Source: Marivita sp.
GTDB taxonomy: Bacteria > Pseudomonadota > Alphaproteobacteria > Rhodobacterales > Rhodobacteraceae
Assembly: GCF_020055675.1 (NCBI RefSeq)
Contig: NZ_JAIPUS010000021.1
Coordinates: 1 to 58,916 of the forward strand
DNA length: 58,916 bases
Reading direction: 5' to 3'
The translations under genes and the position numbers were made by a program. Each line of letters opens with the position of its first letter. Position 1 is the stretch's first letter. Of the stretch, positions 4,447-27,090 are shown one piece after another. Under the pieces are notes generated by a model. It made no database searches, was not told the DNA's origin, and was given only the letters and a program-made list of their open reading frames with translations.

Positions 4447-4541
4447 CACGTCCCCCGGGGCCTTTTGCCCTCTGGTTCTTTACTTTGGTTAAGAAACGGT
4501 GAATCCGTCCTCGTAACCCTTTGAAGTCTCACGTCTCGCAC

Positions 4542-4563
4542 GGTGTCCCATGCATGGGACACC
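4542..4563. repeat. Perfect 22-bp palindrome between nuoJ and nuoK
   Basis: The two 11-base arms GGTGTCCCATG and CATGGGACACC are exact reverse complements with no spacer. The element sits in the only sizeable gap of the distal nuo operon, 12 bases downstream of the nuoJ stop. It could be a dyad-symmetric protein site, a recombination or deletion scar, or an RNA hairpin if it opens a loop. No U-tract follows on the nuo strand, so it is not a classic terminator. Confidence 0.8.
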
Positions 4564-4575
4564 TGTCTGGCACGG

Positions 4576-5178: not shown

Positions 5179-5585
5179 GTCTCGTCATCCTTTTTGTCAT
5201 CTTCCATCACCTCGCGCGCGAGCTCCATGGCGCGGGTCATGGCCGGAATACCCGCGAACATCGACATCTGGGCGATGGTCTCGGCAACCTCGTCCGACGT
5301 GGCCCCCGCCTCGATCGCGTGGCGCACCGTCAGGCGAAACTGCGTATCGGCCTGCGCACCCTGCATCGTCAGTCCTGCAATCGTCAGCAAAAGCCGCGTC
5401 TTGGCGTCCAGACCCTGCTTGCTCAGACCCTTGCCGAACCACATCTCCATGGTGTCTTTCGGCATGGTTGGCCACATCTTTTCGTATCCCTTGGGATCAA
5501 AAGACGACAGCGCCGGGTTGAAAGCCTTGGCCATCTCCTGCGCCTGCTCCATCATCAGCTCGAACGGCGACTTCGATGCGCTCAT
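5175..5585 (-). CDS. AhpD/carboxymuconolactone decarboxylase-like protein in the nuo operon
   Basis: The 136-residue product starts [14 protein letters not shown] and contains the helical segments [20 protein letters not shown] and [20 protein letters not shown], which resemble the carboxymuconolactone decarboxylase/AhpD fold. The CxxC pair of catalytic AhpD proteins is absent, so peroxidase-type chemistry is unlikely. An open frame extends upstream, but the ATG at 5585 is preceded by GAGGTG at good spacing and starts the family-like sequence. It lies between nuoI and nuoJ, overlapping nuoJ by four bases. Location suggests an assembly or accessory role for complex I, which is inference. Confidence 0.8.
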
Positions 5586-5634
5586 GACGCACCTCGCAGA
5601 TCCGGGACCGTGGGATATTCCGGGTGTGCAGACA

Positions 5635-6129
5635 TCATCGGTACGGCGCATCCAGTTCGAGGTTCTGGGCAATCTCGGCTTCCCAGCGGTCGCCATTGTC
5701 CAGCAGCTTCGCCTTGTCGTAGTACAGCTCTTCCCGCGTTTCCGTCGAAAATTCGAAGTTCGGCCCCTCTACGATCGCGTCCACCGGGCAGGCCTCCTCG
5801 CAGAAGCCACAATAGATGCATTTCGTCATGTCGATGTCATAGCGCGTCGTGCGGCGCGACCCGTCATCGCGGGGTTCAGCGTCGATGGTGATCGCCTGTG
5901 CCGGGCAGATCGCTTCACACAGCTTGCAGGCGATGCAACGTTCCTCGCCGTTGGGATAACGGCGCAGCGCGTGCTCACCCCGAAACCGGGGCGACAGGTA
6001 ACCCTTTTCATGCGGATAGTTCAGCGTCGCCTTCGGACCGAAGAAATACCGCAGGCCGAGCTTCATGCCCTGAAAGAAGTCTTGCAGCAGGAAATACTTC
6101 GCGGCGCGTCCGTAATCGATCTGCGTCAT
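5635..6129 (-). CDS. nuoI: NADH-quinone oxidoreductase subunit I (two 4Fe-4S clusters)
   Basis: NuoI carries clusters N6a and N6b and relays electrons towards N2 near the quinone site. The 164-residue product contains two ferredoxin motifs, [12 protein letters not shown] and [12 protein letters not shown], each followed by the usual proline, with the N-terminal amphipathic region [16 protein letters not shown] placed the start at 6129 ([13 protein letters not shown]), which matches alphaproteobacterial homologues in length; an open extension upstream to 6240 overlaps nuoH and is not needed. It follows nuoH by 11 bases. Confidence 0.97.
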
Positions 6130-6140
6130 GTCAGCTCTCC

Positions 6141-7169
6141 TTATACCCAGCGCGCGAATGCGCCCCAGAACCAGTCGAATTTCGCCGCGAAGGCCACGAA
6201 GACCACCCAGACCAGGCTGAACGGCAGGAACACTTTCCATCCCAGCCGCATCAGTTGGTCATAGCGGTAGCGCGGGGTGATCGCCTTGACCATCGCGAAG
6301 AGGAAAAAGAAGAACGCCATCTTGCCGACCATCCACAGCGCGCCATCCGGCAGGCCGGGGATCGGCGACAGCCAGCCGCCGAAGAACAGCAAAGACATCA
6401 GCGCGCACATCAGGAAGATCGCGATGTATTCGCCGGCCATGAACAGCAGGAACGGCGTCGAGGAGTATTCCACCTGGTAGCCCGCCACCAATTCGGACTC
6501 CGCTTCGGGAAGATCAAAGGGCGGACGGTTGGTTTCGGCCAATGCCGAGATGAAGAACAGGAAGACCATCGGGAAATGCGGCAGCCAGTACCAGTTGAAA
6601 AAGCCGAAAGCGCCATCCTGCGCGCGCACGATCTCGCCGAAATTCAACGATCCGGTGGAAATGATGATGCCGATGATGATCAGGCCCAGCGATACCTCGT
6701 AGGAAATCATCTGCGCCGCCGACCGCAAAGACCCGAGGAACGGGTATTTGGAGTTGGACGCCCATCCGCCCATGATCACACCGTACACCTCGAGCGAGGA
6801 AATCGCGAAGACGTAGAGGATGGCCACGTTGATGTCGGCCAGCACCCACGTGTCGTTGAACGGAATCACCGCCCAGAGCATCACCGCCAGCACGAAGGAC
6901 GACAGCGGCGCCAGCATGAAGACCGGCTTGTCGGCCCCGGCGGGCACGACGACCTCTTTCACGACGTATTTCAATGCATCCGCCACCGTTTGCAGCAGCC
7001 CGTAGGCGCCCACGACATTGGGTCCGCGCCGCATCTGGACGGCCGCCCAGATTTTCCGGTCGCCATAGACGAGGAACAAAAGGCTGACCATCACGAACCC
7101 CAGTACCGCAAGGCACTGTGCCACGATGATCACGCCGATCCCGGCAGTTGTCGTAAAGAAATCAGCCAT
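6141..7169 (-). CDS. nuoH: NADH-quinone oxidoreductase subunit H
   Basis: NuoH forms most of the quinone-binding chamber and links it to the membrane pumps. The 342-residue product has about eight membrane helices and the diagnostic loop [20 protein letters not shown] with conserved acidic residues, plus [16 protein letters not shown] near the N-terminus. The start at 7169 ([13 protein letters not shown]) is chosen over a longer open frame that runs back into the upstream lipoprotein gene. Intergenic distance on both sides is about 10 bases. Confidence 0.97.
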
Positions 7170-7176
7170 CACGTCC

Positions 7177-7578
7177 TCAAACCATCGGTATTCCGTTTTC
7201 AGCGCAAGAGGCGGACACGACTTCGGCGTCGATGGTCCGCACCCCGCGTGGCAGCGCCGGCGAGATGGTGTAAACCGCATCTCCTCGCCAGAGGCCAGCC
7301 TCTTCGTCAACTTTTGTGCGCAAATGACGCGCAAAACCATACCCGCGGATCAGCGCATATTGCGCTGCGGCACATTCGGCATAATCCTCGACGTCGGAGG
7401 CATCCCGCGCGCCGTACATGGCGACCTTGAACCGCACCAGACCGTCCTCCAGAAGCGCCGTGTCCACCCCTTCGTAGACCGGCTTGACCCGTCCCGCCTC
7501 GGGGTCCGCAGCGTCACATCCCGACAGACCGCCGACCATCGCCAAGGCGACCGGAGTTATGCCCGCGATGTGGCGCAT
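7177..7578 (-). CDS. Small lipoprotein encoded between nuoG and nuoH
   Basis: The 133-residue product starts [24 protein letters not shown], a type II signal peptide with lipobox LSGC. The mature part is soluble, with a central segment [20 protein letters not shown] and several cysteines. I do not recognise a family by name. It sits 5 bases after the nuoG stop and 7 bases before nuoH, so it is co-transcribed with complex I. The Rhodobacter capsulatus nuo operon is known to contain several unidentified reading frames between nuo genes, and this is probably of that kind. A periplasmic role in assembly is only inferred. Confidence 0.75.
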
Positions 7579-7583
7579 CCGGC

Positions 7584-9602
7584 TCACTCCGCGGCGATCT
7601 TCGTGTCCTTGCGGGATTTCACACCCGCCGACAGTTCGGCCATCAGCGTGCTCGCCCGCGCGATCGGGTTTGTCAGGTAGAAATCCTGCACCGCGTTGCG
7701 AAAATCCGCTTGCCCCAGCTTGCCCGCCGACTCGGCCTGCCATGCGTTCTCGGGCACCGTGTCGATCTTGGCCAGATGCGGCACATCTGCCACCAGTGCG
7801 CGACGCAGCTGCGCCAGGCTGTCAAAGGGCAGCGTTGCGCCCAGCTCGGCGGACAGAGCCCGCAGGATCGCCCAGTTTTCCTTGGCCTCGCCCGGGGCAA
7901 AGCCGGCACGCAACGCCAGTTGCGGGCGTCCTTCGGTGTTCACGAACAGGCCTTGTTCCTCAGTATAGGCGGCACCCGGCAGGATGATGTCGGCGCGATG
8001 CGCACCTCTGTCACCGTGACTGCCCTGGTAGATGACGAACGGGCCATCCGCGATGTCCACTTCATCCGCCCCAAGGTTGTAGATCACCTCGGCACCCTCG
8101 ATGGCAGCGTCAAGCCCGCCTTCCGTGGTGCACCCGGCATCCATCGCGCCGACGCGGCCCGCAGCCGTGTGCAGGACCAAAAGCTTGCCGCCGGATTTTT
8201 CGCAAATTGCCTGCACCTGCGCCAAGACGGCTGCGCCATCGGCTTCGCGCAGGGCGCCCTGACCCACGATCACGATGCTGGCCTTGTCTTGCAGATCGGA
8301 CATATCCAGATCCGCCATATGCTCAAGCGCCGCGCGCCCGGTGCCCATATGCTCATAGTTGTAGGTCAGGTCTGCAGCCTCTCCGACGACCGTGACATCC
8401 GCGCCCGCGGCCCAGGCCTTGCGAATACGCGCGTTCAAAACCGGCGCTTCATCGCGCGGGTTGGTGCCGATCAGCAGAATCTTGTCCGCCGTGTCGATCT
8501 CTTCAATCGTCGCCGTGCCGACATAGCCGGACCGGTTGCCTGCGGGCAGTTTGGCCCCGTCTGTGCGGCATTCGACATGACCGCCCTGGGCTTCGATCAG
8601 GTGCTTGAGGGCGTAACCCGCTTCGGTCGGCACGAGATCCCCGACCAGCCCGGCCAGTTTCCTGCCCTTCATCGCCTCGGCCGCCTTGGTCAGCGCCTCG
8701 GGCCATGTCGAGGGACGCAGCTTGCCGTTTTCACGCACGAAGGGTTTGTCGAGACGCTGACGGCGCAGACCGTCCCAGACGAAGCGCGTCTTGTCGGAAA
8801 TCCACTCCTCGTTCACGCCGTCATGGTTCCGCGGCAGGAACCGCATGACCTCGCGACCCTTGGTGTCGACCCGGATGTTGGAACAAAGCGCATCCATTAC
8901 GTCGATGGATTCGGTCTTGGTCAGCTCCCACGGGCGGGCTGTGAACGCATAGGGCTTCGACACCAGCGCGCCTACCGGGCAAAGATCGATGATGTTGCCC
9001 TGCAAGTTCGATTCGAGCGTTTCGCCAAGGTAGGACGTGATCTCTGCATCTTCTCCCCGGCCGGTCTGGCCCATCTGGCTGATGCCCGCGACCTCGGTGG
9101 TGAAGCGCACGCAGCGGGTGCAGGAAATGCAGCGCGTCATGTGGGTTTCAACCAATGGACCAAGGTCCAGATCCTCGACCGCGCGCTTTGGCTCGCGGAA
9201 GCGGCTGAAATCGACACCATAGGCCATCGCCTGGTCCTGAAGGTCGCATTCGCCGCCCTGATCGCAGATCGGGCAATCCAGCGGGTGGTTGATGAGCAGA
9301 AACTCCATCACCCCTTCACGCGCCTTCTTTACCATCGGGCTGTTGGTCTTGACGACAGGCGGCTCCCCGTCCTTGCCGGGACGCAAATCCTTGACCTGCA
9401 TCGCGCAGCTTGCCGCGGGCTTGGGCGGGCCGCCCACAACCTCGACAAGACACATCCGGCAATTGCCCGCGATGGACAGGCGTTCGTGATAGCAGAATCG
9501 CGGGATTTCGATTCCGGCCTGTTCACAGGCCTGGATCAGCGTCATCCCGCCTTCGACTTCAATCTCGTTCCCATCGATGATGATCTTGCGAAAGTCAGAC
9601 AT
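7584..9602 (-). CDS. nuoG: NADH-quinone oxidoreductase subunit G
   Basis: NuoG is the large iron-sulfur subunit of the peripheral arm. The 672-residue product has, in order, the 2Fe-2S motif with [15 protein letters not shown] (N1b), [19 protein letters not shown] (N5 region with a histidine ligand), and [10 protein letters not shown] (N4 region), then a molybdopterin-oxidoreductase-like domain without cofactor motifs. The extra N7 cluster motif seen in E. coli is not visible, as in mitochondrial-type enzymes. The ATG at 9602 is preferred over a TTG two codons upstream. The C-terminus ends in a charged tail ([10 protein letters not shown]). Confidence 0.96.
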
Positions 9603-9777
9603 GCCCAAGCTCTTTGTTCCCGTTTGGCTGGCGCAGTCGATGCCGTGGCAGAAAGGCTATCGGCTGACGTCGCTGGTGTTCTAACGTGACTTGAAAAGAT
9701 AGGCCATAGTTTGCGCAAAAAAGAAGGCGGGAAATATCGACGCGGACCCGGCAATCGACCCGGCACCAATGCGCCTT

Positions 9778-10173
9778 TTATCTCAACAAACGCCCGATTG
9801 CGGTCTCGGCCGCGATCTGTTCCCTGCCGAAGCGGCACAACCCGGGACGATCATCAAGCGTAACGCCCTGACTGGCCAGGTAGCGTTCCGCCTTGGCTTT
9901 CATACGTGCCTTTTCGTCTTTCGAGGTCACGTAGGTTTCCACTTCCTCGTCCGAATAGCCCCTTTCGCGCGCCATCGACTTGAGCGCGTTCAGCGCTGAA
10001 TAGGCCCGGATCAGGCGCGGATTGATATCTTCGCATGATTTGCGGATTGCATCGGCAATCGCCACCGTCATCACGCCATTGTCGATCTGTGCCACATCGC
10101 GCAATGGCGGCTTGGCCAAAGCCGCAGTGCCGGCCAGGACAGCCAGGCTCAGGAGGGGAACGAGGATACGCAT
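9778..10173 (-). CDS. DUF5333-like secreted protein in the nuo operon
   Basis: The product is 131 residues with an N-terminal signal peptide (MRILVPLLSLAVLAGTAALA, cleaved near AKPP). The mature region contains PPLRDVAQIDNGVMTVAIAD and repeated basic or acidic helices, ending AIGRLLR. This pattern fits a Rhodobacterales-restricted family I recall as DUF5333, found beside nuo genes. Its function is unknown. It lies between nuoG and a lipoprotein gene, with about 175 non-coding bases before nuoG. The start at 10173 is chosen because it begins the signal peptide; the upstream open extension has no signal features. Confidence 0.72.
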   Translation of the reverse strand: MRILVPLLSLAVLAGTAALAKPPLRDVAQIDNGVMTVAIADAIRKSCEDINPRLIRAYSALNALKSMARERGYSDEEVETYVTSKDEKARMKAKAERYLASQGVTLDDRPGLCRFGREQIAAETAIGRLLR

Positions 10174-10253
10174 CCGATAATCCAGAAATCTCTCATCACA
10201 GTGTGGGGGCCGCACGCGAGACCCTTCAAGGCGACAGCATGATTTGCCGCAGA

Positions 10254-10586
10254 TTACGGCTCAACACAGCGCCCCGTCAGAACAACGGCATTGTCGCGTA
10301 TCGTCAGTTCGCTGTCGTCGACATAAGGGCCGTTTTTCCAATCGACATCAGACGTGCCCAGATAGCCGATGCAATGTTGCACCGCCTGGAATTGCGCCGC
10401 CTGCCTTGAGCCTTCAAGGCTGACCGAGGCCGGACCTCCGGTCGCGACAAACGCGGCGCGATTTCCCCGTTCAGACTGCAAATCGCCGGTGAAGCGCGCG
10501 CCTTCAAAGGTGATCGTGTCGCGATCCGACGCTCCGCATCCCGCAAGAATCATCGATCCAAAGAGTGCTGCCCATGCTGCTTTCAT
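10254..10586 (-). CDS. Small lipoprotein downstream of nuoF
   Basis: The 110-residue product has a lipoprotein signal (MKAAWAALFGSMILAGCGAS, lipobox LAGC) and a short mature domain with two cysteines (HCIGYLG and GRCVEP) that could pair in the periplasm. I do not recognise a named family. It sits about 158 bases after nuoF and 80 bases before the DUF5333-like gene, all on the same strand. The gap to nuoF contains a 14-bp palindrome, so the distance may allow separate regulation. No enzymatic motif is seen. Confidence 0.7.
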   Translation of the reverse strand: MKAAWAALFGSMILAGCGASDRDTITFEGARFTGDLQSERGNRAAFVATGGPASVSLEGSRQAAQFQAVQHCIGYLGTSDVDWKNGPYVDDSELTIRDNAVVLTGRCVEP

Positions 10587-10744
10587 GGTGGTAACCTTTT
10601 CCAATCGTGTCGGCACCTTGCGCGCAGAGCGACCGGGCTTGCAAGCCCTTGGGGCCAGCATCGCGATCAAACCCGGCGCATCGCCTGTCGAAGACCCTTG
10701 ACCATCAATGTCCGAACTGCTGCGCCAACGGGCGTCGACGCGCC

Positions 10745-12043
10745 CTACTCCGCCGCCACGGCGCTTAGGCGACCCGCCCTCTGCATCTTGATCCGCTCCT
10801 CGATCTCGTCGCGGAAATTCTTGATCAGCCCCTGGATCGGCCAGGCCGCCGCATCGCCAAGCGCGCAGATCGTGTGGCCCTCGACCTGCTTGGTCACGTC
10901 GAACAGCATGTCGATCTCCTCGACCTCGGCCTCGCCGCGCACCAAACGGTCCATGACCCGCATCATCCAGCCGGTCCCTTCCCGGCAAGGGGTGCACTGG
11001 CCACAGCTTTCGTGCTTGTAGAACTTCGACAGCCGCCAGATCGCCTTGATGATGTCGGTATCCTTGTCCATCACGATCACCGCCGCCGTGCCAAGGCCCG
11101 ATCCAAGCTCGCCACGCAGGTAATCGAAATCCATGATGGCGTCTTTCATGTTTTCGCCGCGCACACAGGGAACCGACGAGCCGCCCGGGATCACCGCCTT
11201 GAGATTATCCCAACCGCCGCGAATGCCGCCGCAATGCGTCTCGATCAACTCTTCGAAACTGATCGACATGGCCTCTTCGACAACACAGGGATTGTTCACA
11301 TGGCCGGACACGGCAAAGAGCTTTGTCCCCGCGTTGTTCTGGCGACCGAACCCCGAGAACCATTCCGCCCCGCGGCGCAGGATCGTTGGCACCACGGCAA
11401 TGGATTCTACGTTGTTGACCGTGGTCGGGCAGCCATAAAGCCCCGCGCCCGCAGGGAATGGCGGCTTCATGCGCGGCATGCCCTTTTTGCCCTCAAGCGA
11501 TTCCAGAAGCGCGGTTTCCTCGCCGCAGATATAGGCGCCCGCGCCGTGGGTCAGGTAAAGATCGAAATCCCAGCCCGATCCGCTCGCGTTCTTGCCGATC
11601 AACCCGGCGTCATACGCCTCGTCGATGGCGGCTTGAAGCGCCTCTTTTTCACGGATGTATTCGCCCCGGATATAGATGTAGCAGGCGTGCGCCTGCATCG
11701 CGAAAGACGCGATCAGGCAGCCCTCGATCAGCGTGTGCGGATCATGCCGCATGATTTCCCGGTCCTTGCAGGTGCCCGGCTCGGATTCGTCGGCGTTCAC
11801 CACAAGATAGGCCGGACGCCCATCGCTTTCCTTGGGCATGAACGACCATTTCAACCCCGTGGGAAACCCTGCACCGCCGCGCCCGCGCAGACCGGATTGT
11901 TTCATCTCGTCGACAATCCAGTCGCGGCCCTTTTCAATGAGCTTGGCCGTGCCATCCCAATGGCCGCGCGCCTGTGCCCCTTTGAGGGTCCGGTCGTGCA
12001 TCCCGTAAATATTGGTAAAGATCCGGTCCTGATCGCTCAGCAT
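10745..12043 (-). CDS. nuoF: NADH-quinone oxidoreductase subunit F (NADH and FMN binding)
   Basis: NuoF accepts hydride from NADH onto FMN and passes electrons to cluster N3. The 432-residue product contains the nucleotide-binding loop [16 protein letters not shown], the FMN-site segment [16 protein letters not shown], and the 4Fe-4S ligands [13 protein letters not shown] with a distal cysteine in HTICALGDA. The start [14 protein letters not shown] matches alphaproteobacterial homologues. It begins 3 bases after the upstream 73-residue membrane protein gene. All expected residues are present. Confidence 0.97.
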
Positions 12044-12046
12044 TGC

Positions 12047-12268
12047 TCAATCCTTGTCATTCTGGCGGGCACGCCAGAGTTTGTATGTCATCCAAAGCCC
12101 TGCCCCGAACCCGGCCAGTGCAACCAGGTCAAATAGGGCGCGGGTGCGCTGGCTCCAGCCATATTGCGCCCCCAGGGCTGTCACCAGTATCCAGAAAAGC
12201 CCGATCCCGGCAATGAACAGCGCAACACGCTGGCCGGTCCGCGACTCCTCTGAACGCTGGCGTTTCAT
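12047..12268 (-). CDS. Two-helix membrane protein (DUF5337-like) upstream of nuoF
   Basis: The 73-residue product has a basic N-terminus (MKRQRSEESRTGQR), two hydrophobic segments (VALFIAGIGLFWILVTALG and LFDLVALAGFGAGLWMTY) and a polar C-terminus. Length and arrangement fit a small Rhodobacterales family I recall as DUF5337, usually placed between nuoE and nuoF. No catalytic motif is present. Its tight spacing with nuoF (3 bases) implies coupled expression, suggesting a supernumerary subunit or assembly factor of complex I, which is inferred from context only. Confidence 0.72.
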   Translation of the reverse strand: MKRQRSEESRTGQRVALFIAGIGLFWILVTALGAQYGWSQRTRALFDLVALAGFGAGLWMTYKLWRARQNDKD

Positions 12269-12285
12269 TCGATCCGGGCCCCGCG

Positions 12286-13170
12286 TCAGTACACGTCACC
12301 CTTGTCAACGCGCTTGGAAAACTCGGTATCCTCACCAGAGGCAAGGATCTTTGCTTGTTCCACCCAACCGTCGCGACTCACGCGGCCCTTGAACCCTTCG
12401 AGATTGGCATTCACCCATGCCACCTCGGCTTCGGTCCAATTGGCAATCTGGTCGAAGTGGAAAAAGCCCATTGAGTTCAAAAGCTTCTCAAGTTTCGGTC
12501 CGACACCTTTTATTTCCTTCAGGTTGTCCGGGCCACCTTCACGCGCCTCGGTCAAGGTCTCGGGTTTCGTCCCCTCGTTTTCCCCTTCGACCGTCCCGTC
12601 GCCATCGTAATCCTTGGCCGCGGGCTCCTTGGCTACGGGGGCTGATTTGTCCTCGGCGGCAGATGTCTCCGTCGAGCCAGCATCGCCTTCGTATTTCCAT
12701 TCGCCCTTCCGGGCTGCGAGTTCATCCTGACCTTCAAGCTTGGTCGTCGGCTTGACCTGCGATCCCGCTTCGGCATCCGTGGTGGCGTCGGCCGTGCGCA
12801 CATCGGGCTGCGCATCCGCAGCAGCCGGCGCGCTCGTGGCCGGGCTTTCAGGTGCGACCGCCGTGGACACAGGCGCAGCACTGGCAGCACTTTCAGCCGC
12901 CGGCGCGCTGCCCGTTGGCGCCGATGCAGATGTCTCCCGTGCACCGCTGCTATCGATGTTACCCGGCCCGCGCGGCGCAGGCAGATCGCGGCAGAACAGA
13001 TACCCGAACAGCAGACCCAGTACCGCGAGGGTCACGACCCCCATGAAAATGGCTCCGATCCAACCCCAGTCGCCGATGATCAGCAAAAGGACCGTGGCAA
13101 GCAACCCGATCCCTGCGGCCAAAGCCCATGACCCCAGCTGGCAACTCATGCCGGAATTCTGTTGTTGCAT
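12286..13170 (-). CDS. Membrane protein with NuoE-type C-terminal helix-hairpin-helix domain
   Basis: The 294-residue product has three parts. Residues 1 to about 65 contain two membrane segments (WALAAGIGLLATVLLLIIG and GAIFMGVVTLAVLGLLFGY). Residues 70 to 220 are a low-complexity linker rich in Ala, Pro, Ser, Thr and Glu. The last 75 residues form a helix-hairpin-helix-like domain with KGVGPKLEKLL and [19 protein letters not shown]. This last domain is nearly a copy of the NuoE C-terminus encoded 28 bases upstream. It may tether or organise the NADH module at the membrane; no function is established. Confidence 0.82.
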   Translation of the reverse strand: MQQQNSGMSCQLGSWALAAGIGLLATVLLLIIGDWGWIGAIFMGVVTLAVLGLLFGYLFCRDLPAPRGPGNIDSSGARETSASAPTGSAPAAESAASAAPVSTAVAPESPATSAPAAADAQPDVRTADATTDAEAGSQVKPTTKLEGQDELAARKGEWKYEGDAGSTETSAAEDKSAPVAKEPAAKDYDGDGTVEGENEGTKPETLTEAREGGPDNLKEIKGVGPKLEKLLNSMGFFHFDQIANWTEAEVAWVNANLEGFKGRVSRDGWVEQAKILASGEDTEFSKRVDKGDVY

Positions 13171-13198
13171 TTGTACTCTCCCTGTCCGTGTTCAGATA

Positions 13199-14452
13199 TT
13201 ACTCGTCGTAAACATCGCCCTTTTTGACACGTGCAGAAAACTCCGTCTCGCCGCCCGAGGCAAGGGTCTTGGCTTGTTGAACCCAATTATCCCGCGAAAC
13301 GCGGCCTTTGAACCCCTCAAGGTTCTGGTCGACCCAGGCGACTTCCTCGTCTGTCCAGCTTGCAATCTGGTCGAAATGATAAAAACCTAAGCGATTGCAC
13401 ATTTTTTCCAACTTCGGGCCAATCCCGCGGATCCGCTTCAGGTCATCGGCTTGTCCGTCGCGCGGCGCATCCAGTGTCGCAGGCCTGAGGCCGGGCGAGG
13501 CATGCGGGCCGGACCCGCCAGCCTTGGCAGGGTGCGCCTCGGCGCTGGCATCCGTGGGAGGTTTCGCCTTGGCCGCAACCTCCGGCGCTTCTCCGGGGGC
13601 TTCGGATGTCTTGTCGGACGCCTCCCCGACGTCGCGCGGCGCGGCGTCCTCCCCCTTGTCACGCCCACCTTGCGGACCGTCCGGCCCGGAAGGTGGCATC
13701 ATCGCGTCGGGTCCCGGCTTGGGCGGCGTGGCCGCATTCGCAGCTTTGCCCTGCCAGGGGGCGGTCAACGGAACTTCGGTCCCGTCGATCCGCTTGACCG
13801 TGTCCCCCAGCTCTTGCGCCAAATGCACCGACGCGTTGTGCGTGTACGTGCCGGTTTGATACGCCGTCAGACTGGTCAGGCCGGACTTCGGCTCGGACGC
13901 GAAGCGCCCCGTCTGCGGGCCGGGAACCGGCACATCGCCTGCCACGAGCGCATCGAGAATTTCCGACAGCCGCTCTGCGGTCAGATCCTCGTAATAATCC
14001 TTGCCGATCTGTGCCATCGGCGCATTGGCACACGCGCCCAGGCACTCGACCTCTTCCCAGCTCAGCTTGCCATCTTCGGACAGCGTATGCGGCTTGGGCG
14101 CGATCTTTTCGCGGCAGACCGATATAAGGTCCTCGGCGCCGCAGATCATGCAGGACGTCGTGCCACACACCTGGATATTGGCAACGCTACCAACGGGTTG
14201 CAGTTGAAACATGAAGTAGAAAGAGGCGACTTCCAAGGCCCGCATATAGGCCATGTCCAGCATGTCCGCGACCGTCTCGATTGCCGGACGGCTCAGCCAG
14301 CCTTCCTGTTCCTGTGCGCGCCACAAAATCGGAATGATCGCGCTGGCCTGACGGCCTTCGGGATACTTGGTGATCTGCGCTTCGGCCCAGGCCTGGTTGG
14401 CATCGGTAAAGGCGAAAGCCTCGGGCTGTTCGGAATGTAGGCGTCTTTGCAT
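13199..14452 (-). CDS. nuoE: NADH-quinone oxidoreductase subunit E with long C-terminal extension
   Basis: NuoE holds the 2Fe-2S cluster N1a in a thioredoxin-like fold. The product is 417 residues, about twice the usual NuoE. Residues 1 to about 180 are the canonical subunit with ligand pairs in [10 protein letters not shown] and [10 protein letters not shown] proline/alanine-rich linker follows, and the last 75 residues are a helix-hairpin-helix-like domain ([31 protein letters not shown]). The start at 14452 ([15 protein letters not shown]) is taken because the longer open frame upstream crosses a strong hairpin and lacks similarity. The extension matches the adjacent membrane protein. Confidence 0.94.
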
Positions 14453-14503
14453 ATCAAGTCCTATTGCGTCATCACACAGACAACGGGTATATCGGAATGG
14501 CAC

Positions 14504-14537
14504 CATCCGGACGCCCGCCCGCAGGCGCGTCCGGATG
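14504..14537. repeat. 11-bp inverted repeat hairpin upstream of nuoE
   Basis: Arms CATCCGGACGC (14504-14514) and GCGTCCGGATG (14527-14537) are perfectly complementary around a 12-base loop. The hairpin lies in the 177-base gap between the small lipoprotein gene and nuoE, inside the operon transcript. There is no U-run, so RNA processing, stabilisation of the downstream message or partial attenuation are more likely than full termination. Confidence 0.7.
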
Positions 14538-14629
14538 CACCGACGGCCACAGGCGTTGATCCCGCAGCCTATCCATCGAAAACAGTCGTGCAGCAACGGC
14601 CGGCGCGGCGGATATCACGTCACCCCGGA

Positions 14630-14917
14630 TCATGCCGCAGCACAGGCTCCTGTCGTCAAGCGGATCCCGCCATTCGACAAACGCACAGCCTCTTCGGCGT
14701 TCAGCTTGTATTGCGCGGTTTCAAGCACCTGCTGGCGCGTCAACCCGGTCTGAAGTTCAACGGGCAGGTAATCGCTCTCGCCCACCAAGTCACAGCCGAT
14801 CGACGCCACAGCCTCGTCGAACATGACCAGGTCTTCGGGCGTCACGCCCTCTGGCGGCAGTGCACAGGCGGCCAAAAGACCCGTGGCACCAAAGACCGAA
14901 AGTCCCCGGATCGTCAT
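14630..14917 (-). CDS. Small lipoprotein between nuoD and nuoE
   Basis: The 95-residue product begins [20 protein letters not shown], a lipoprotein signal with lipobox LAAC, followed by a compact domain with [18 protein letters not shown] and [18 protein letters not shown]. The two further cysteines in the mature part could form a disulphide. Its start overlaps the nuoD stop by four bases, so translation is coupled. The family is unknown to me beyond being one of the small extra reading frames common in Rhodobacterales nuo operons. Confidence 0.7.
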
Positions 14918-16146
14918 CGGTCAATTTCTCCGAACACGACATCCATCGTCCCGATGATCGCTGCCACATCGGCCAGCTGATGCCCGCTGGCCACGTGATC
15001 CATCGCCTGAAGGTGCAAGTATCCCGGCGCGCGCAGCTTGGCGCGGTAGGGTTTGTTGGTACCATCAGCCACGAGGTACACACCGAACTCGCCCTTCGGG
15101 GCCTCGACAGCGGCATAGACCTCGCCCTCGGGGACGTGGAACCCTTCGGTATAAAGTTTGAAATGATGGATCAATGCTTCCATCGACGTCTTCATCTCGG
15201 ACCGCTTCGGCGGCGTGACCTTGCCCCGGGACAAAACGTCCCCCTGCCCGTCCGGAGCGCGCAGCTTGTCGATCGCCTGCTGCATGATCTTCACGCTTTC
15301 GCGCATCTCGGCCATCCGCACGAGATACCGGTCAAAGCAGTCGCCGTTCTTGCCGACCGGAATCCTGAAATCGAACTCATCATAGCATTCGTAGGGCTGT
15401 GAGCGGCGCAAATCCCAAGCCAGGCCCGACCCGCGCACCATCACGCCGGAAAAGCCCCAGTCCTTGATTTCCTCTTCGCTCACGACGCCGATATCGGCGT
15501 TCCGTTGCTTGAAAATCCGGTTCTCCGTCAGCAACCCGTCGATATCGTCGAGCACCTTTGGGAAGGTCCCGCACCATTCCTCAATGTCGTTGATCAGGTC
15601 CGCCGACAGGTCCTGGTGCACACCTCCGGGCCGGAAATATGCCGCGTGCAACCGCGCGCCACAGGCCCGTTCGTAGAAAACCATCAGCTTTTCACGCTCT
15701 TCGAAACCCCAAAGCGGCGGGGTGAGCGCGCCCACATCCATTGCCTGGGTCGTCACGTTTAGCAGGTGCGACAGGATACGTCCGATCTCGGAGTAGAGCA
15801 CCCGGATCAGCGAAGCCCGACGCGGCACCTCGACGCCGGTCAGCCGTTCAATGGCCAGACACCAGGCATGTTCCTGGTTCATCGGTGCAACGTAATCCAG
15901 CCGGTCGAAATACGGCAGGTTCTGCAGGTAGGTCCGGCTTTCCATCAGCTTTTCGGTGCCACGATGCAGCAAGCCGATATGCGGATCGCAGCGCTCCACG
16001 ATCTCGCCATCCAGCTCGAGAACCAGGCGCAAAACGCCGTGCGCTGCCGGGTGTTGCGGACCGAAGTTGATATTGAAGTTGCGGATGCTCTGTTCGCCAG
16101 AGACCGCGTCGATGCTGCCATCGTCGAATTTGGACCCGTCCATCAT
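14914..16146 (-). CDS. nuoD: NADH-quinone oxidoreductase subunit D
   Basis: NuoD forms the quinone-binding pocket together with NuoB. The 410-residue product carries [10 protein letters not shown] and [10 protein letters not shown], the conserved quinone-site segments, and the family C-terminus DVVFGEIDR. The start at 16146 has two consecutive ATG codons; the first overlaps the stop of the preceding 57-residue gene by one base (TGATG). Its stop overlaps the following lipoprotein gene. All landmarks of an active subunit are present. Confidence 0.97.
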
Positions 16147-16318
16147 CAGCGTTTCTCCAATTCTTGCAGCTTCATCGCCATCACCCAGAGCAGAACCAGC
16201 GTCCCGACCGGGATCACCACGCCGAACGCCCAGTTCTTGTTAACCCCGAAATGGGGCAGGAGTTTCAACATCGGGACAAGCGTGGCGGCCGTGACGACCA
16301 GCCAGATGAAAAACCCCA

Positions 16319-16319
<1 letters not shown>
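16146..16319 (-). CDS. 57-residue membrane protein between nuoC and nuoD
   Basis: Reading the minus strand from the ATG at 16319 gives a 57-residue protein: one hydrophobic helix at the N-terminus ([20 protein letters not shown]), a short polar turn with NKNW, a second helix ([20 protein letters not shown]) and a charged end (QELEKR). Its start codon overlaps the nuoC stop by one base and its own stop overlaps the nuoD start by one base, both as TGATG, so it is locked into the operon by coupled translation. It is too short for common gene-calling cut-offs. A role as a supernumerary complex I subunit or assembly factor is inferred. Confidence 0.85.
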
Positions 16320-17912
<1,593 letters not shown>

Positions 17913-18289
17913 GACGAAGGCTCCTTATATGGTCACGCTGCATGGCGCGCCGTCAAGTGGCTAGGTTGACTTGAAAAGGGATGTACTCCCGACACCCGGC
18001 GGGGTCAACCGGGCTGCGCCTCTTGAAATCGCCGCAAAAAGCCATGCATTTCAGGCAAATGGCGTAAATTTTTCAGTAATTTCCGCCACATGCGGCAATC
18101 GGTCAGGCCTTTGGTGACGTGGCACGCCCGACATCACGAAATTCACGCAGCTGGCGGCTGCCCGACATGGGGCACCGAAGCCCCCATCTGCCACGGGGAT
18201 CGCGAAACACCGCCAGCGTGCTGCGGTCTTCCTTCTGGCCGACGCATCACGTCCGAATGGCGGCTGTGTCAAACCGCGCACCCCTGCCG
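17913..18289. other. 377-bp intergenic region upstream of nuoA
   Basis: No convincing gene is seen. The stretch near 18050-18085 is AT-richer than its surroundings (ATTTTTCAGTAATTT on the plus strand), and the candidate nuo promoter lies at 17980-18008. A minus-strand open frame crosses 18051-18289 but has no recognisable motifs, and its upstream part runs antisense-frame through the 4-TM gene. The region may hold the end of the decayed liu operon and the nuo regulatory sites. Confidence 0.6.
17980..18008 (-). promoter_or_regulatory. nuoAp: Candidate sigma-70-type promoter of the nuo operon
   Basis: On the minus strand, TTGACC (18003-18008) and TACATC (17980-17985) are separated by exactly 17 bases and lie about 70 bases upstream of nuoA. 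The match is reasonable for -35 and -10 boxes in alphaproteobacteria but has not been tested, and other promoters could exist in the same gap. Confidence 0.4.
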
Positions 18290-18661
18290 TCACGCGGTCA
18301 TCACCACCAAGGCCATCGCTGTCATGACCAGGGTCACCGGTGCCCAAACCGCGCGTTCCGGCCTGGAGGGCGTGAGCAAGTTCAAGACTGCGGTCATCGC
18401 CTGAACCACGAAGGCCAGCCACCCTGTCCAGACCGGCCACCCCAAACCGGGGAACCCCGCGGCCGAAAGGATCGCGAGGGCGTTGAACAGCACAACAGGG
18501 ACCGAGGTTGCCGCAACCAGTCGACCCGAGAGCGGCAAGGCACCCTCATGTTTGCCGCCCTGAGTATAGGCACCCAGCGGCGCGCCGGCGATCAAAGCAA
18601 CCTCGAAGAAGACGATGGCCAGGCAGGTCGATGCGTAAAGATGTGCAATCTGGACGATCAC
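18290..18661 (-). CDS. Four-helix membrane protein at the end of the decayed liu operon
   Basis: The 123-residue product has four hydrophobic segments: HLYASTCLAIVFFEVALIAG, LVAATSVPVVLFNALAILSA, WPVWTGWLAFVVQAMTAVL and VWAPVTLVMTAMALVVM. Charged residues occur only in loops. The start is a GTG at 18661 that overlaps the stop of the preceding chimeric relic (GTGA). The frame is intact and family-like, but I cannot name a family or function. It is the last gene of the unit before the nuo regulatory region. Confidence 0.65.
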   Translation of the reverse strand: MIVQIAHLYASTCLAIVFFEVALIAGAPLGAYTQGGKHEGALPLSGRLVAATSVPVVLFNALAILSAAGFPGLGWPVWTGWLAFVVQAMTAVLNLLTPSRPERAVWAPVTLVMTAMALVVMTA

Positions 18662-19203
18662 GGCCAGCTCGGGCTGCGCTTGTCGAAGAACGCCGCCACG
18701 CCTTCGCGGGCCTCCTCCGATGTCCAGCGCTGTGTCCGCGCGTCAATCGCATGGTCCACGTGGGCCCGCGTCACCCGGCCGGTCTGCCCCCGCACCGGCA
18801 AATCCGCCGCTTGGGCGGCCTCGGACACGGGTGCGAACCGCTCCAGCCTCTCCGCGATCGACGCATTTATATCGACGCGCGAAAACCCGTCGGACGCCGA
18901 CCCGAAAATTGCCACCCCGTCGGCCTTTGCAGCCATCGTCGCATCAAGCCCGCGCAGGTTCGGCGTCAAGGCGACACAGGACACGCCGGGCAGCCGTTTC
19001 GGCGAGACGAAACCCGCGCACTCGATTCGCCCAATGCCGGCTCCCGAGAGACAATCGACCAGGGCCACCTTCTCCGCCACCGGGATCAGCCGTGCCTCGG
19101 TCTGCAACCCGTCGCGCGGCCTTACCTCGAAACTCTCGACCCGATCCGGCACGCCGCGCTCTTGCGTCCCGGCTTTGAAAACATGCAAATCGCGTTCAGT
19201 CAT
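18658..19203 (-). pseudogene. Chimeric relic: HMG-CoA lyase fragment joined to enoyl-CoA hydratase tail
   Basis: The 181-codon open frame begins MTERD. Residues about 21-140 match HMG-CoA lyase: VESFEVRPRDGLQTEARLIP, VALVDCLSGAGIGRIECAGF, ALTPNLRGLDATMAAKADGV and FGSASDGFSRVDINASIAER. About 18 residues normally found between SPK and PGVS are missing in frame. After LPVRG the lyase stops, without the HxHDT and GCPYAPGA regions that carry catalytic His and Cys. The last 40 residues (ending EEAREGVAAFFDKRSPSWP) look like an enoyl-CoA hydratase C-terminus. Both activities must be lost. The start overlaps the GST stop by 8 bases. Family matches are from recall. Confidence 0.85.
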
Positions 19204-19870
19204 CGGTCTCCCACGCGGGGTAAAACTCCTGCGCATACAACCGCGCGCCTGCCGCATCGGGCAGGGATTTTCGGAACGCGTCTCGATCCGTGATCCGGTC
19301 GTACCAGTCGGACACCGCGGGATGATCGTCCAACGTCCTGAAATGCCGCGCCATGTACACCGCCTGCCCGACAGACACATCGGCGGCCGAAAAGCCGCTG
19401 GTCAAAAGATAGTCGCGGTTTTCCACCGGTGTCGACAGCCGCGCCTCCAGGGCGTCGTAACATTTGCCAAGACGCGCCGCCTCCAGCTTCATCACCACGG
19501 GGGATCGCATCGAATCCTCGTACAGCATGACATGCTGTTGCGTCAGCGCAGCGACATGCTGGCTGATGGTCTCGGCAAAATGCACCCAGACCAGCCACGC
19601 CATGCGGTCGGGATCCGACGGGCCGCGCCCCATGTTGGCCCCGGGAAACCGCTCGCACAGGTATTCGGTGATTGCTCCTGTCTCGAACATCCGCTCGCCG
19701 TCGATCTCGAGCGCGGGAACGCGCCCCGCCGGTGACAATGTCAGGTATTCAGAGGCGCGCAGGCTGCGATCGAAGGCGTGCAGGACCACCTCGAAGGTAA
19801 CCTCGAGCTCGTACAGCAACCACAGCGTCCGCATCGACCGGGTCTGCGGGCAATGATGCAAACGGATCAT
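19196..19870 (-). CDS. Glutathione S-transferase family protein, intact within the relic operon
   Basis: The 224-residue product has a thioredoxin-like N-terminal half (MIRLHHCPQTRSMRTLWLLY, then SPAGRVPALEIDGERMFETG with the cis-proline and the glutathione-binding ETGAI segment) and an all-helical C-terminal half with GFSAADVSVGQAVYMARHF. The length and all domain landmarks are normal, so it is probably functional, although its substrate is unknown. The ATG overlaps the stop of the mccA relic (ATGA), and its stop overlaps the HMG-CoA lyase relic. It is the largest intact gene in this operon. Confidence 0.88.
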   Translation of the reverse strand: MIRLHHCPQTRSMRTLWLLYELEVTFEVVLHAFDRSLRASEYLTLSPAGRVPALEIDGERMFETGAITEYLCERFPGANMGRGPSDPDRMAWLVWVHFAETISQHVAALTQQHVMLYEDSMRSPVVMKLEAARLGKCYDALEARLSTPVENRDYLLTSGFSAADVSVGQAVYMARHFRTLDDHPAVSDWYDRITDRDAFRKSLPDAAGARLYAQEFYPAWETDD

Positions 19871-20427
19871 GTCGCGGTCTCCTCTTCCAACCGGATCAGA
19901 ACGGCGCCGGCTTCGACCTGGGTGCCCGCCGCCGCCATGACCTTGGCAATCACCCCGTCACGCGCCGCAAGCGGGGAATGTTCCATCTTCATCGCGTCCA
20001 GCACCGCCAGCCTGTCCCCCTCGGACACCTTGTCTCCTGCAGCAACCTGCACCGACCGGGGCATGCCCGGCATCGGGGCCTCGTTCCGGTCGCTGGTCGC
20101 ACGGGCAAACGCGCCGCGCTCCAATGGATCGACACGACACAACCAGCACAGCGCTGGAGCGAACAGGGTCAGCGAAACGCCGTCCGACTGACACGCCCGT
20201 GCCGCTTGCCCCTCATAGCGCCAGCCACGTGCCCCGTGCCGCGCCTGCACAATATCGTCGCCGACGCTCAGATCAACCTCCCCCGGCGCGGTCACGGAGA
20301 GGCGCACAACATGTTCGGACGCATCAGAGCGCAGGCAGACCTGCTGTCCAACAGGGTGCCACAAGGCAAACCCGTCCAGCGTTCCGGGCGCACGGTCAAG
20401 CCCGCTCAGCACCATCGCCGCCTGCAC
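19867..20427 (-). pseudogene. Truncated methylcrotonyl-CoA carboxylase alpha subunit, biotin carrier end only
   Basis: Only the last 185 or so residues of a biotin-dependent carboxylase alpha subunit remain. The C-terminal 75 residues are a biotinyl domain with VLDAMKMEHSP, which includes the biotin-acceptor lysine, and the preceding part (GLDRAPGTLDGFALWHPVGQ) resembles the BT linker domain of methylcrotonyl-CoA carboxylase. The biotin carboxylase ATP-grasp domain, about 450 residues, is missing. The 5' end joins the first 45 or so codons of mccB in a different frame. A GTG at 20427 could start a short product that might still be biotinylated but cannot carboxylate. Confidence 0.87.
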
Positions 20428-20551
20428 GAGATCCGCCGCCCGCGATCGCCAGGTCGGCGGCGTCCTCGACCACGCGGAGCGCGTCCAGATGCGCGGCTCG
20501 GTCGGTCTTGAACGGCTCGGACGCCGTGACGACCTGTGACTCGAGTTTCAT
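20396..20551 (-). pseudogene. Truncated methylcrotonyl-CoA carboxylase beta subunit, N-terminus only
   Basis: From the ATG at 20551, preceded by GGAG, the frame reads MKLESQVVTASEPFKTDRAA and continues HLDALRVVEDAADLAIAGGG before losing similarity and stopping after 51 codons at 20396. This matches, from memory, the N-terminus of the carboxyltransferase (beta) subunit of methylcrotonyl-CoA carboxylase. The remaining 480 or so residues, including the acyl-CoA site, are absent. The reading frame then overlaps the mccA fragment out of frame, so one deletion removed most of both genes. Confidence 0.8.
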
Positions 20552-20552
20552 C

Positions 20553-21041
20553 TCATTCTCCGCGCATGTCGCGCAGAGAAATGGCGCGTTGGGCCGTCAT
20601 CGTCAGGTGGCAATTCGCGGCAACGATGGTGCGAATCGTGCCGTTCTGCCACATCGCGTAGCGCGCCCCGCAATCGGCATCGCGAAAGGCAATCCAGGCC
20701 CGTTGTGCATCACGCAAGGCATCCGACCTGTCCATCACCTGCGACAGCCCGTCTGTGTCAGCGGACTCGTTGACCTTCTGGGTCGCCTGGTATTCCTCGT
20801 TCAGGATGGTGTCCCATTCGGCGGTTTCGGCCGCTATGCACTCCGCGATCCCGATGGTCGTCGACCCGCCGGGCAGGTCCTGACACTGGCCCGAGGCTTG
20901 CCCAAGACAGGCGGGGAAAAAAGCGCCGGTCTCGGTGGTCGCGAAACAGTCCCGCACGATCTGCGGATCAATCGTCAAACCCTGCGCCTCACTGACCTGG
21001 GGTGCGCAGAGCATGGCGGCAATCATCAAAACCCGTTTCAC
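20553..21041 (-). CDS. LprI-like (DUF1311) secreted protein
   Basis: The 162-residue product starts at a GTG (21041) with AGGAGG seven bases upstream and has a signal peptide (MKRVLMIAAMLCAPQVSEAQ). The mature domain shows the DUF1311 pattern: CIAAETAEWDTILNEEYQAT, then LRDAQRAWIAFRDADCGARY and a last cysteine in VAANCHLTM. Relatives include the lysozyme-inhibitor-like LprI family of periplasmic proteins. The frame is intact and the cysteines are present. It sits between the acyl-CoA synthetase relic and the mccB relic with a four-base overlap upstream, so it belongs to the same operon. Confidence 0.85.
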   Translation of the reverse strand: MKRVLMIAAMLCAPQVSEAQGLTIDPQIVRDCFATTETGAFFPACLGQASGQCQDLPGGSTTIGIAECIAAETAEWDTILNEEYQATQKVNESADTDGLSQVMDRSDALRDAQRAWIAFRDADCGARYAMWQNGTIRTIVAANCHLTMTAQRAISLRDMRGE

Positions 21042-21442
21042 GCCTGTCCCTCCTGACACGCCCGACGCTTCAACTCCTTGCCGGCAACCATCATCGGCAG
21101 GGCTTCGAGAAACTTTATTTCACTTGTATAAGAATGACTTACAGGCCGATACTTCACCCATGCCTTAAGATTTATTACCGATGCGTCAACGCCCTGATCC
21201 AGCGCCACACAGGCCGGCACACTCTTGGTGCGCAGGGCATCGGGTTCGCCAACCACCCCGCAGGTCGCCACGCCGGGATGGGTCAGCAGGCACTCCTCGA
21301 TCAAGGCAAGCCGACCCCGATCCATCGCTGCCCCACCATCACAGATCTGATGCGCCGCGTTGAGCATTGCAGGCAGATCCCAGTCGCCCGCCTTGCAAAG
21401 CCTATCGCAGGGCGCGGGTGTGTACATCGGGTGCTGGATCAT
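21038..21442 (-). pseudogene. Acyl-CoA synthetase with its centre deleted
   Basis: The 134-codon frame joins two ends of an AMP-forming acyl-CoA synthetase. Residues 1-48 (PCDRLCKAGDWDLPAMLNAA, then DRGRLALI) match the N-terminus, and residues 50-130 match the C-terminal domain: ECLLTHPGVATCGVVGEPDA, LKAWVKYRPVSHSYTSEIKF and EALPMMVAGKELKRRA with the catalytic-loop lysine. About 400 residues that include the ATP/AMP-binding core motifs are missing. The join is in frame at ALIEECLL. The product cannot adenylate a substrate. The start overlaps the preceding 99-residue gene (ATGA). Confidence 0.85.
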
Positions 21443-21738
21443 ATGGACGGCTTCTCTGGTGGTGTGCCGGTCGACATCAGGCGGCCAAGGCGGTTCACGT
21501 GATACTGGATGTTTCCGCAACGCACGGTGATCCAAGCCCCCTCGATCTGCCCGGCCAGCCCGACGCAATCGCCAAGGCTGGCCTCCGGGCCGCCATCCTG
21601 CTGCACGTATCGTTGGGAAAACGCAGTGATCACGTCCGTCTCCGATATCGTCGCCGCGATCCAGCCGGTCCGGAACGCCAGCAAGGCCCCGACAAGCGTG
21701 GCAATGCCCAAGGGTACAAACCAGCCCCAGCGCGGCAT
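21439..21738 (-). CDS. Small membrane-anchored protein of unknown function
   Basis: The 99-residue product begins MPRWGWFVPLGIATLVGALL, an N-terminal membrane anchor, followed by a soluble domain (TGWIAATISETDVITAFSQR, then DCVGLAGQIEGAWITVRCGN) with two cysteines and a C-terminal proline-rich tail. It looks like a Rhodobacterales family seen near isovaleryl-CoA dehydrogenase genes, but I cannot name it. The frame is intact. Its start overlaps an upstream stop (TGATG) and its stop overlaps the acyl-CoA synthetase relic, so operon coupling is preserved. Confidence 0.68.
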   Translation of the reverse strand: MPRWGWFVPLGIATLVGALLAFRTGWIAATISETDVITAFSQRYVQQDGGPEASLGDCVGLAGQIEGAWITVRCGNIQYHVNRLGRLMSTGTPPEKPSI

Positions 21739-21943
21739 CAGGGGATCGTCTTTCCAAATGTCATCACGCCGATCTTCTTTGCATTTTTCACTCCGCGCAA
21801 CACATCCCGGAAAAGGCAGGACACCGGCGCGCCCGACAGGAACCCGGCCCCATCGCCTGTTCGCTGGCATCAAGACAACAGGCCGCCCGATCTTGCCGTG
21901 TCACGTCTTCCCCAGGATCGAACTGCAGGGTCGCGTTGAACAT
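21738..21943 (-). pseudogene. Isovaleryl-CoA dehydrogenase relic
   Basis: From the ATG at 21943 (GGGGAG upstream) the frame reads MFNATLQFDPGEDV, the start of isovaleryl-CoA dehydrogenase, then jumps to VTRQDRAACCLDASEQAM, a segment from near the C-terminus. It stops at 21788. In the neighbouring frame the sequence continues AGFLSGAPVSCLFRD, also from the C-terminal part, so a second deletion shifted the frame. About 350 residues are missing, including the FAD and substrate sites. The last bases encode VLRGVKNAKKIGVMTFGK, which I cannot place. The stop overlaps the next gene start as TGATG. Confidence 0.85.
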
Positions 21944-21966
21944 TCGCTGCTCCCCAAAGCGGGATT

Positions 21967-21984
21967 ATTGAACATACGTTCAAT
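21967..21984. promoter_or_regulatory. 18-bp palindromic operator candidate upstream of the ivd relic
   Basis: ATTGAAC and GTTCAAT form perfect 7-base arms around ATAC. The site lies 24 bases upstream of the isovaleryl-CoA dehydrogenase start, the normal place for a repressor site, and 98 bases upstream of the divergent PNPOx-like gene. The dyad is of the size bound by TetR-type regulators of acyl-CoA metabolism; the regulator is not in this window. Confidence 0.6.
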
Positions 21985-26591: not shown

Positions 26592-26601
26592 CAGCCCGGA
26601 G

Positions 26602-27090
26602 TCACCCTTCGACAAACACCTGAACCTCGGTCAACCCGGTCAGGGGCAAACCCAGCAATCGCATCGCCGCCAGTGACAATCGGCTGCCCGACCGATCTAC
26701 CGGAAGCAGCTCGACCTGGGCCGACCTGCCGGTGTCCGGAAAAACAACCCGGCCCGGTCCCGCCGTGGACACCTGGGGTGTTTCGATCCAGAAGCCCGGC
26801 CGCGCCGGATCCCCCAGTGACACGATTGTCGTCCCAAGCGCGCGTGCGGCAGCGGCCTCGTCACCGCCGGCGGCCGCGGCCTCTTTCTCGGCGGCCGTGC
26901 TGGTGTCGAACGCTTCAGCCGTGCGCGCGGTGGCCGGCGGTCGGCGGTCGCTGGTCGTCAAGGCCGCGGGCCGCGATTGCGGACGCGTCGTCCCTTCGCT
27001 GCCGGCCGGCGCCGATTGCGGCGATGCAATCATGTCACCACAGCCGGACAGCGCCACGCAGGCCCCCAGGATTGCCAATCTTTTTAACAT
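26602..27090 (-). CDS. Conserved lipoprotein of unknown function
   Basis: The 162-residue product has a lipoprotein signal (MLKRLAILGACVALSGCGD, lipobox LSGC), a disordered alanine/threonine-rich region to about residue 80, and a C-terminal domain with TIVSLGDPARPGFWIETPQV, GPGRVVFPDTGRSAQVELLP and LSLAAMRLLGLPLTGLTEVQ. The C-terminal motif is common in Rhodobacterales proteins that are sometimes labelled D-galactarate dehydratase; nothing here supports that enzyme. Function unknown. It is convergent with glmS and divergent from moaA. Confidence 0.72.
   Translation of the reverse strand: MLKRLAILGACVALSGCGDMIASPQSAPAGSEGTTRPQSRPAALTTSDRRPPATARTAEAFDTSTAAEKEAAAAGGDEAAAARALGTTIVSLGDPARPGFWIETPQVSTAGPGRVVFPDTGRSAQVELLPVDRSGSRLSLAAMRLLGLPLTGLTEVQVFVEG

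Follow-up and report, generated by a model that had tools for sequence, protein, structure and literature searches.

A decayed liu operon in Marivita sp. that retains four small passenger genes among enzyme remnants

The liu locus of the window and its intact counterparts

The 58,916-nucleotide stretch of Marivita sp. DNA analysed here (contig NZ_JAIPUS010000021.1, referred to as the window) carries the remains of a liu operon for leucine and isovalerate catabolism. A prior inspection of its letters alone (the sequence-only reading) had described one unit in which fragments of an isovaleryl-CoA dehydrogenase (ivd), an acyl-CoA synthetase (acs), MccB, MccA, an HMG-CoA lyase (hmgL) and an enoyl-CoA hydratase (liuC) are joined by stop-start overlaps with four small genes, coding for a 99-residue protein (p101), an LprI-like protein (lprI), a glutathione S-transferase (gst) and a protein read as having four transmembrane segments (tm4). 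Using Marivita lacus proteins as tblastn queries (for tm4, the window's own product), we found every named piece in that order and on that strand, with the overlaps described, the window reproducing the gene order of its congeners with four large gaps. Comparison with the congeners likewise bore out that the four small genes, hereafter the passengers, are full length. The open reading frames (ORFs) and other features are:

21968..21983, no strand: operator-like sequence TTGAAC-N4-GTTCAA, a perfect palindrome that precedes the ivd start
21742..21943, minus strand: ivd remnant; a C-terminal piece follows the start and 13 codons in the same frame, and beyond it come a frameshifting deletion of 34 bp and a scrambled tail
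21439..21738, minus strand: p101, full-length passenger of 99 amino acids; matches M. lacus p101 at 70% across its residues 1-100
21038..21442, minus strand: acs remnant, 134-codon ORF with a 1146-bp in-frame deletion and a 12-bp deletion; match to PF13193 (AMP-binding_C)
20553..21041, minus strand: lprI-like gene, full-length passenger (PF07007, E 6e-22), starting with a GTG that overlaps the stop of the acs remnant (GTGA)
20396..20551, minus strand: mccB remnant, 51-codon ORF with homology over the first ~40 codons
19867..20427, minus strand: C-terminal mccA remnant, 186-codon ORF with a biotinyl domain (PF00364, E 2e-13) and the motif MKMEH; its stop overlaps the gst start (ATGA)
19196..19870, minus strand: gst, full-length glutathione S-transferase-like passenger (PF02798, E 3e-13)
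18658..19203, minus strand: HmgL-LiuC remnant, in-frame fusion ORF drawn from the ATG overlapping the gst stop; 48-bp deletion at 18990
18290..18661, minus strand: tm4, 123-amino-acid hydrophobic protein, full-length passenger by congener comparison; its GTG start overlaps the fusion stop (GTGA)

On the ivd-acs side, matches covered residues 315-333 and 345-360 of Ivd, 1-100 of p101, and 1-49 and 428-519 of Acs; in the remainder they covered LprI 1-161, MccB 1-35, MccA 459-647, GST 1-222, HmgL 2-151 (with a 48-bp internal gap) and LiuC 214-257. The first 13 Ivd codons are visible in the alignment. The frame of the HmgL-LiuC fusion is open further, to 19380, with HmgL homology from about 19146 and the LiuC part from about 18795. 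By its domains, the gst product is predicted to belong to the glutathione S-transferase family, PF02798 and PF13410 (the N- and C-terminal domains) both scoring above cut-off; no NCBIfam equivalog cut-off was reached. PF07007, at 78.5 bits against a cut-off of 22, assigns the lprI-like product to the LprI family. The exact palindrome pattern occurs just upstream of ivd in the window genome (G000) and in the three other genomes searched (G010, G012 and G008), and the reversed control gave no site in any of the four. A second exact copy lies in G000 at C72:104509-104524; the three congeners have one site each.

The window genome (3.60 Mb, 82 contigs, 99.9% complete) was compared at this locus with 16 other Marivita genomes, including M. 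lacus (G010). In these congeners, the stretch from gph/glmU to nuoA holds ivd, p101, acs, lprI, mccB, mccA, gst, hmgL, liuC and tm4. As expected if the operon of the window is pseudogenised, its orthologues are intact at the same nuoA-adjacent locus in all 16, with the sole exception that hmgL is absent from one (G008). The sequence-only reading had held that finding the same short ORFs as independent genes in close relatives would speak against decay; this turned out to describe the four passengers, whereas the enzyme fragments correspond to full-length genes. In a FastTree phylogeny of 18 genomes (two outgroups included, G013 omitted), G000 branches outside all included congeners except G008, with support of 1.0.

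Some congeners show variants of their own. In G008 (Marivita sp. GX14005; L057 10666-10761), hmgL alone is gone from an otherwise complete liu operon and liuC directly follows gst. The tm4 frame of M. lacus (L047 12345-12712) is split by a frameshift. In G006 (L031 5182-5847) the same operon slot is occupied by a GST with only 39% identity to its M. lacus counterpart, possibly a non-orthologous replacement. The p101 proteins of G004, G009 and G011 (L029, L034 and L036) share 39-40% identity with M. lacus p101, and there the p101-acs overlap measures 16 nucleotides instead of 4, possibly reflecting a different small gene in the slot.

A functional liu operon would include full-length ivd, mccA, mccB, hmgL and liuC; the window holds fragments only. 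Full-length Ivd, MccB and MccA were not found elsewhere in G000, Acs and LiuC having been searched only in the window. Full-length MccB and, among the matches listed, full-length Ivd are present in 16 of the 17 genus genomes, G000 alone lacking them. Its best matches elsewhere are a carboxyltransferase with 36% identity for MccB and, among the matches listed, an acyl-CoA dehydrogenase with 36% identity for Ivd; for MccA, the best matches beyond the window are biotin carboxylases, which align at 53-56% across the N-terminal part. An HMGL-like protein (41% identity) is encoded in G000, and similar ones in G008, G012 and G014. A check on branched-chain keto acid dehydrogenases through PF00676 was uninformative (three matches in G000, two to five in five congeners).

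Deletions, relaxed constraint and the age of the loss

Four large deletions have left about 3.3 of 9.9 kb of the operon in the window genome. Alignment with six relatives placed and sized them as follows:

21904..21905, no strand: ivd deletion junction; 906 bp lost, identical against all six relatives, a multiple of three
21298..21299, no strand: acs deletion junction; 1146 bp lost, identical against all six relatives, a multiple of three
20431..20432, no strand: mccB/mccA deletion junction; 2.9-3.1 kb lost, out of frame
18785..18815, no strand: hmgL/liuC deletion junction; 1082 bp lost (five of the six relatives have hmgL), fusion in frame

The earlier description of each enzyme gene as missing most of its interior applies to ivd and acs, the only two gutted internally; the other two deletions span gene borders, running from mccB into mccA and from hmgL into liuC. 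Since hmgL and liuC are read in different frames, it takes the 1082-bp loss to bring them into one frame, and the ORF is indeed open. GACGT (5 bp) stands on both sides of the ivd junction and ATCGAGG (7 bp) on both sides of the acs junction, each in three of the six relatives; direct repeats inside the window account for none of the junctions. The 34-bp frameshifting deletion in ivd falls between GGCGATGG repeats in the relatives. Besides the ambiguous tail of ivd, the other small changes are a 12-bp deletion in acs, one of 48 bp in hmgL, and a handful of spacer and gene-end events.

To gauge constraint, we counted alignment columns that are invariant among the congeners (at least 10 per column) and altered in G000, pooling acs, mccB, mccA, hmgL and liuC; the short ivd piece was kept out of the pool, G006 was dropped for gst, and the divergent p101 sequences were retained. 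In the enzyme remnants, 56 of 278 pooled columns (20%) are altered: 22/79 in acs, 16/82 in hmgL, 9/70 in mccA, 7/27 in liuC and 2/20 in mccB, the ivd piece having 4/26. Taking each congener in turn gave 0-2.5% for the same enzymes, except for 8% (17/212) in G008. The passengers have 5 of 311 columns altered (gst 0/156, lprI 1/74, p101 1/28, tm4 3/53), a proportion inside the 0.3-5.5% spanned by the controls. The remnants differ strongly from the passengers (Fisher P = 1e-14) and from the same regions in G008 (P = 0.0002). Selection on the remnants is thus relaxed, as expected of a pseudogenised operon, and the constraint on the passengers beside them indicates that these stayed under selection after the pathway had died. 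Estimates of omega on the G000 branch, made with eight reference congeners, pointed largely the same way: they were 0.42 for acs, 0.49 for mccA, 0.57 for liuC, 0.28 for mccB, 0.24 for hmgL and 0.13 for ivd (30 codons), against 0.07 for gst, 0.22 for lprI, 0.23 for p101 and 0.13 for tm4; inclusion of the divergent G006 protein adds some noise to the gst value.

Because a fifth of the congener-invariant columns have changed in the enzyme remnants, the loss of the liu enzymes is fairly old and the remnants are not fresh, contrary to the suggestion of the sequence-only reading that the loss looked recent. For neutral evolution to alter 20% of residues, about 0.1 substitutions per site are required, and the synonymous length of the branch is roughly 0.4-0.8, from which we infer that the enzymes have been free of constraint for perhaps a fifth of the lineage's own branch. 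Together, this estimate and the altered columns disfavour both a recent loss and an assembly collapse. That the assembly is a draft in 82 contigs gives collapse, or a very recent deletion, some initial appeal; either would have left normally constrained stubs, however, and full-length copies of Ivd, MccB and MccA are missing from the rest of the genome, which makes this explanation scarcely credible.

Passenger genes without the pathway

When four deletions of 905, 1140, 2950 and 1090 bp were placed at random without overlap, the promoter and the passengers remained untouched in 172 of 199,978 trials, the target being 60 bp of promoter plus all four small genes, a set defined after it had been seen. 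Gene length alone is therefore a poor explanation of the sparing.

We then surveyed 199 genomes of the family, comparing by eye the lists of genomes with MccB (E threshold 1e-180) and gst (1e-65). MccB was detected in 163 and gst in 55, of which five lack full MccB: G000, G153, G177, G203 and G204. These and the following counts outside G000 refer to genomes, not to independent losses. In G153, G177 and G203, gph and nuoA stand on either side of gst, possibly with other genes between, and no liu enzyme matched in 19.9 kb around it; G177 retains an lprI relative (39% identity). Salibaculum halophilum L093 has the same arrangement, again with other genes possibly intervening and no liu enzyme detected nearby; full-length MccA was not found in that genome, in which MccB was not searched. 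In G204, from another genus (L151 8649-9491), mccB is fused in frame at about residue 249 to the last ~33 codons of mccA, and the fusion ends in an ATGA overlap with gst; hmgL and liuC are retained. This in-frame mccB-mccA ORF is a deletion of the same style as those of the window.

At least nine surveyed genomes have mccB on another contig or further from gst. Among seven of them that we examined, gst lies 0.2-1.3 kb from nuoA in six and elsewhere in G017. Four of the six (G144, G191, G216 and G234) carry no liu enzyme in the gph-nuoA interval; mccA adjoins gst in G085, and acs and p101 adjoin it in G183. The position of gst in genomes devoid of local liu enzymes therefore suggests that it is anchored to the locus rather than to leucine catabolism.

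Open frames, translational coupling and competing explanations

Taken together, these data very probably describe a liu operon that decayed by ordinary deletions while selection kept its passengers. The Marivita lineage of G000 would have lost leucine/isovalerate catabolism, the pathway having become dispensable, after which ordinary deletions would have stripped about 6 kb of enzyme sequence; those hitting the promoter or p101, lprI, gst or tm4 would have been purged, these four genes presumably doing work independent of leucine breakdown. What remains would be a short operon, probably still transcribed, in which four constrained genes and the almost freely evolving enzyme stubs still follow the old promoter/operator region. 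The sequence-only reading had left the choice between selection for the small neighbours and a special mechanism; the former holds up, and a special deletion mechanism is not needed.

We also considered whether the stubs themselves contribute. In the window the ORFs form the chain p101-ATGA-acs stub-GTGA-lprI-1 nucleotide-mccB stub (overlapping the mccA stub)-ATGA-gst-ATGACTGA-HmgL/LiuC stub-GTGA-tm4. Four-nucleotide overlaps are found in the congeners at acs-lprI (16/16), mccA-gst (13/16) and liuC-tm4 (15/16, the exception being the split tm4 of M. lacus), the other borders being mostly spaced (-1 to 432 nucleotides for ivd-p101, 12-247 for mccB-mccA and about 50 for gst-hmgL, with 2 in G006). 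Open frames are kept by acs, mccA and hmgL-liuC, the stubs that end in an overlap with a passenger start, and ivd, at a spaced border, carries the only frameshift inside the remnants. In acs and hmgL-liuC, none of the four clear length changes, two large and two small, disturbs the frame (P = 0.012, for a set chosen post hoc). With ivd and the mccB-mccA junction added, five of seven length changes keep the frame (P = 0.045, again chosen post hoc), a modest bias. This tally leaves aside length changes in spacers, those of 15 and 24 bp in the ambiguous tail of ivd, and isolated gene-end events (6 bp in p101, and 3 bp each near the end of mccA and the start of hmgL). We tentatively propose, as a hypothesis somewhat less likely than not, that the dead stubs might act as non-functional "translational leaders", whose codons are free and whose frames are selected to stay open, so that stop-start coupling at the conserved 4-nucleotide overlaps would bring ribosomes to lprI, gst and tm4.

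Several observations weigh against the preferred account or its coupling part. The mccB-mccA junction, one of the four large ones, is out of frame. The mccA-gst overlap is absent from G002, G009 and G015, where gaps of 192-616 nucleotides take its place, and lprI and gst have their own Shine-Dalgarno-like sequences (by eye), so that coupling may be unnecessary. The sequence-only reading had noticed few internal stops; none occurs in 517 remnant codons, and a simulation at 20% residue change expects only about 1.6 in such GC-rich DNA (probability of none about 0.2). The high GC content accounts for this scarcity, and we rejected the absence of stops as evidence of selection. As for relaxed constraint, omega is high for mccA and liuC in G008 too (0.47 and 0.46), where the copies are full length and hmgL is absent; the mccB value is near that of one control (0.26 in G010), and that of p101 slightly exceeds its five controls (0.14-0.20).

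There is about an even chance that the stubs are plain neutral debris, with the passengers under selection and the open frames arising by chance in GC-rich DNA. The expected number of stops, the out-of-frame junction, the frameshift in ivd and the three congeners lacking the mccA-gst overlap are all compatible with that account. It leaves less well explained the four frame-keeping changes in acs and hmgL-liuC, the coincidence of the open stubs with overlaps that are conserved among the congeners, and the additional in-frame join upstream of gst in G204.

That some stubs have become new small functional proteins, such as a free biotinyl domain, appears improbable. The mccA stub does retain that domain with MKMEH, and 5 of 41 invariant columns are altered in it; in the 16 congeners, however, the domain alters only 0-3 of 41-44, the acs and hmgL-liuC stubs are altered even more, and the congeners read these stretches as parts of full-length genes. 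A dedicated mechanism that deletes long genes and leaves their ends would fit the striking of six of six enzymes and the sparing of four of four small genes, but two deletions extend over a gene border, the ivd and acs junctions fall within short stretches common to both sides, and synteny with three congeners (G010, G011 and G012) revealed no comparable decay at 22,000-58,916 or about 4,500-18,000 of the window, all of which makes it very unlikely.

Decay of the liu operon with selection on its passengers thus remains our preferred account, and the locus represents a variant form of ordinary reductive evolution, one element of which is both new and testable. It resembles the liu operon of Rhodobacteraceae, intact in the Marivita congeners, in location, gene order, operator-like palindrome and embedded p101, lprI, gst and tm4, and differs in that all six enzyme genes are wrecked. 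In stink-bug symbionts, operons such as the ilv region are described as decaying progressively during genome reduction (PMC8032781). The window shares with them the stepwise loss of pathway genes within an otherwise kept gene order, whereas its genome is not host-restricted as far as known, the genes kept are passengers foreign to the pathway, and the stubs are open. The gph-gst-nuoA arrangement of other Rhodobacteraceae, with no liu enzyme detected, places gst as in the window; those genomes lack the liu operon or carry it at another place, and here its stubs remain. In the titles and abstract openings we consulted, neither this Marivita locus nor the retention of stubs as leaders came up. 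The passengers appear separable from the pathway: four genes of a leucine operon seem to be needed for something else, gst especially, which holds the same place without the enzymes. The locus also lends itself to asking if the frames of dead genes are under constraint from translational coupling; if the leader idea were true, it would be a natural experiment in which coupling rather than protein function preserves them.

Two minor observations complete the comparison. The mccA gene of G009 had seemed split; we rejected this, the interruption being a run of N. At 26592-26615 of the window, next to glmS, a gene of about 660-680 bp present in the three congeners compared, apparently of DNA alkylation repair type by eye, is cleanly missing.

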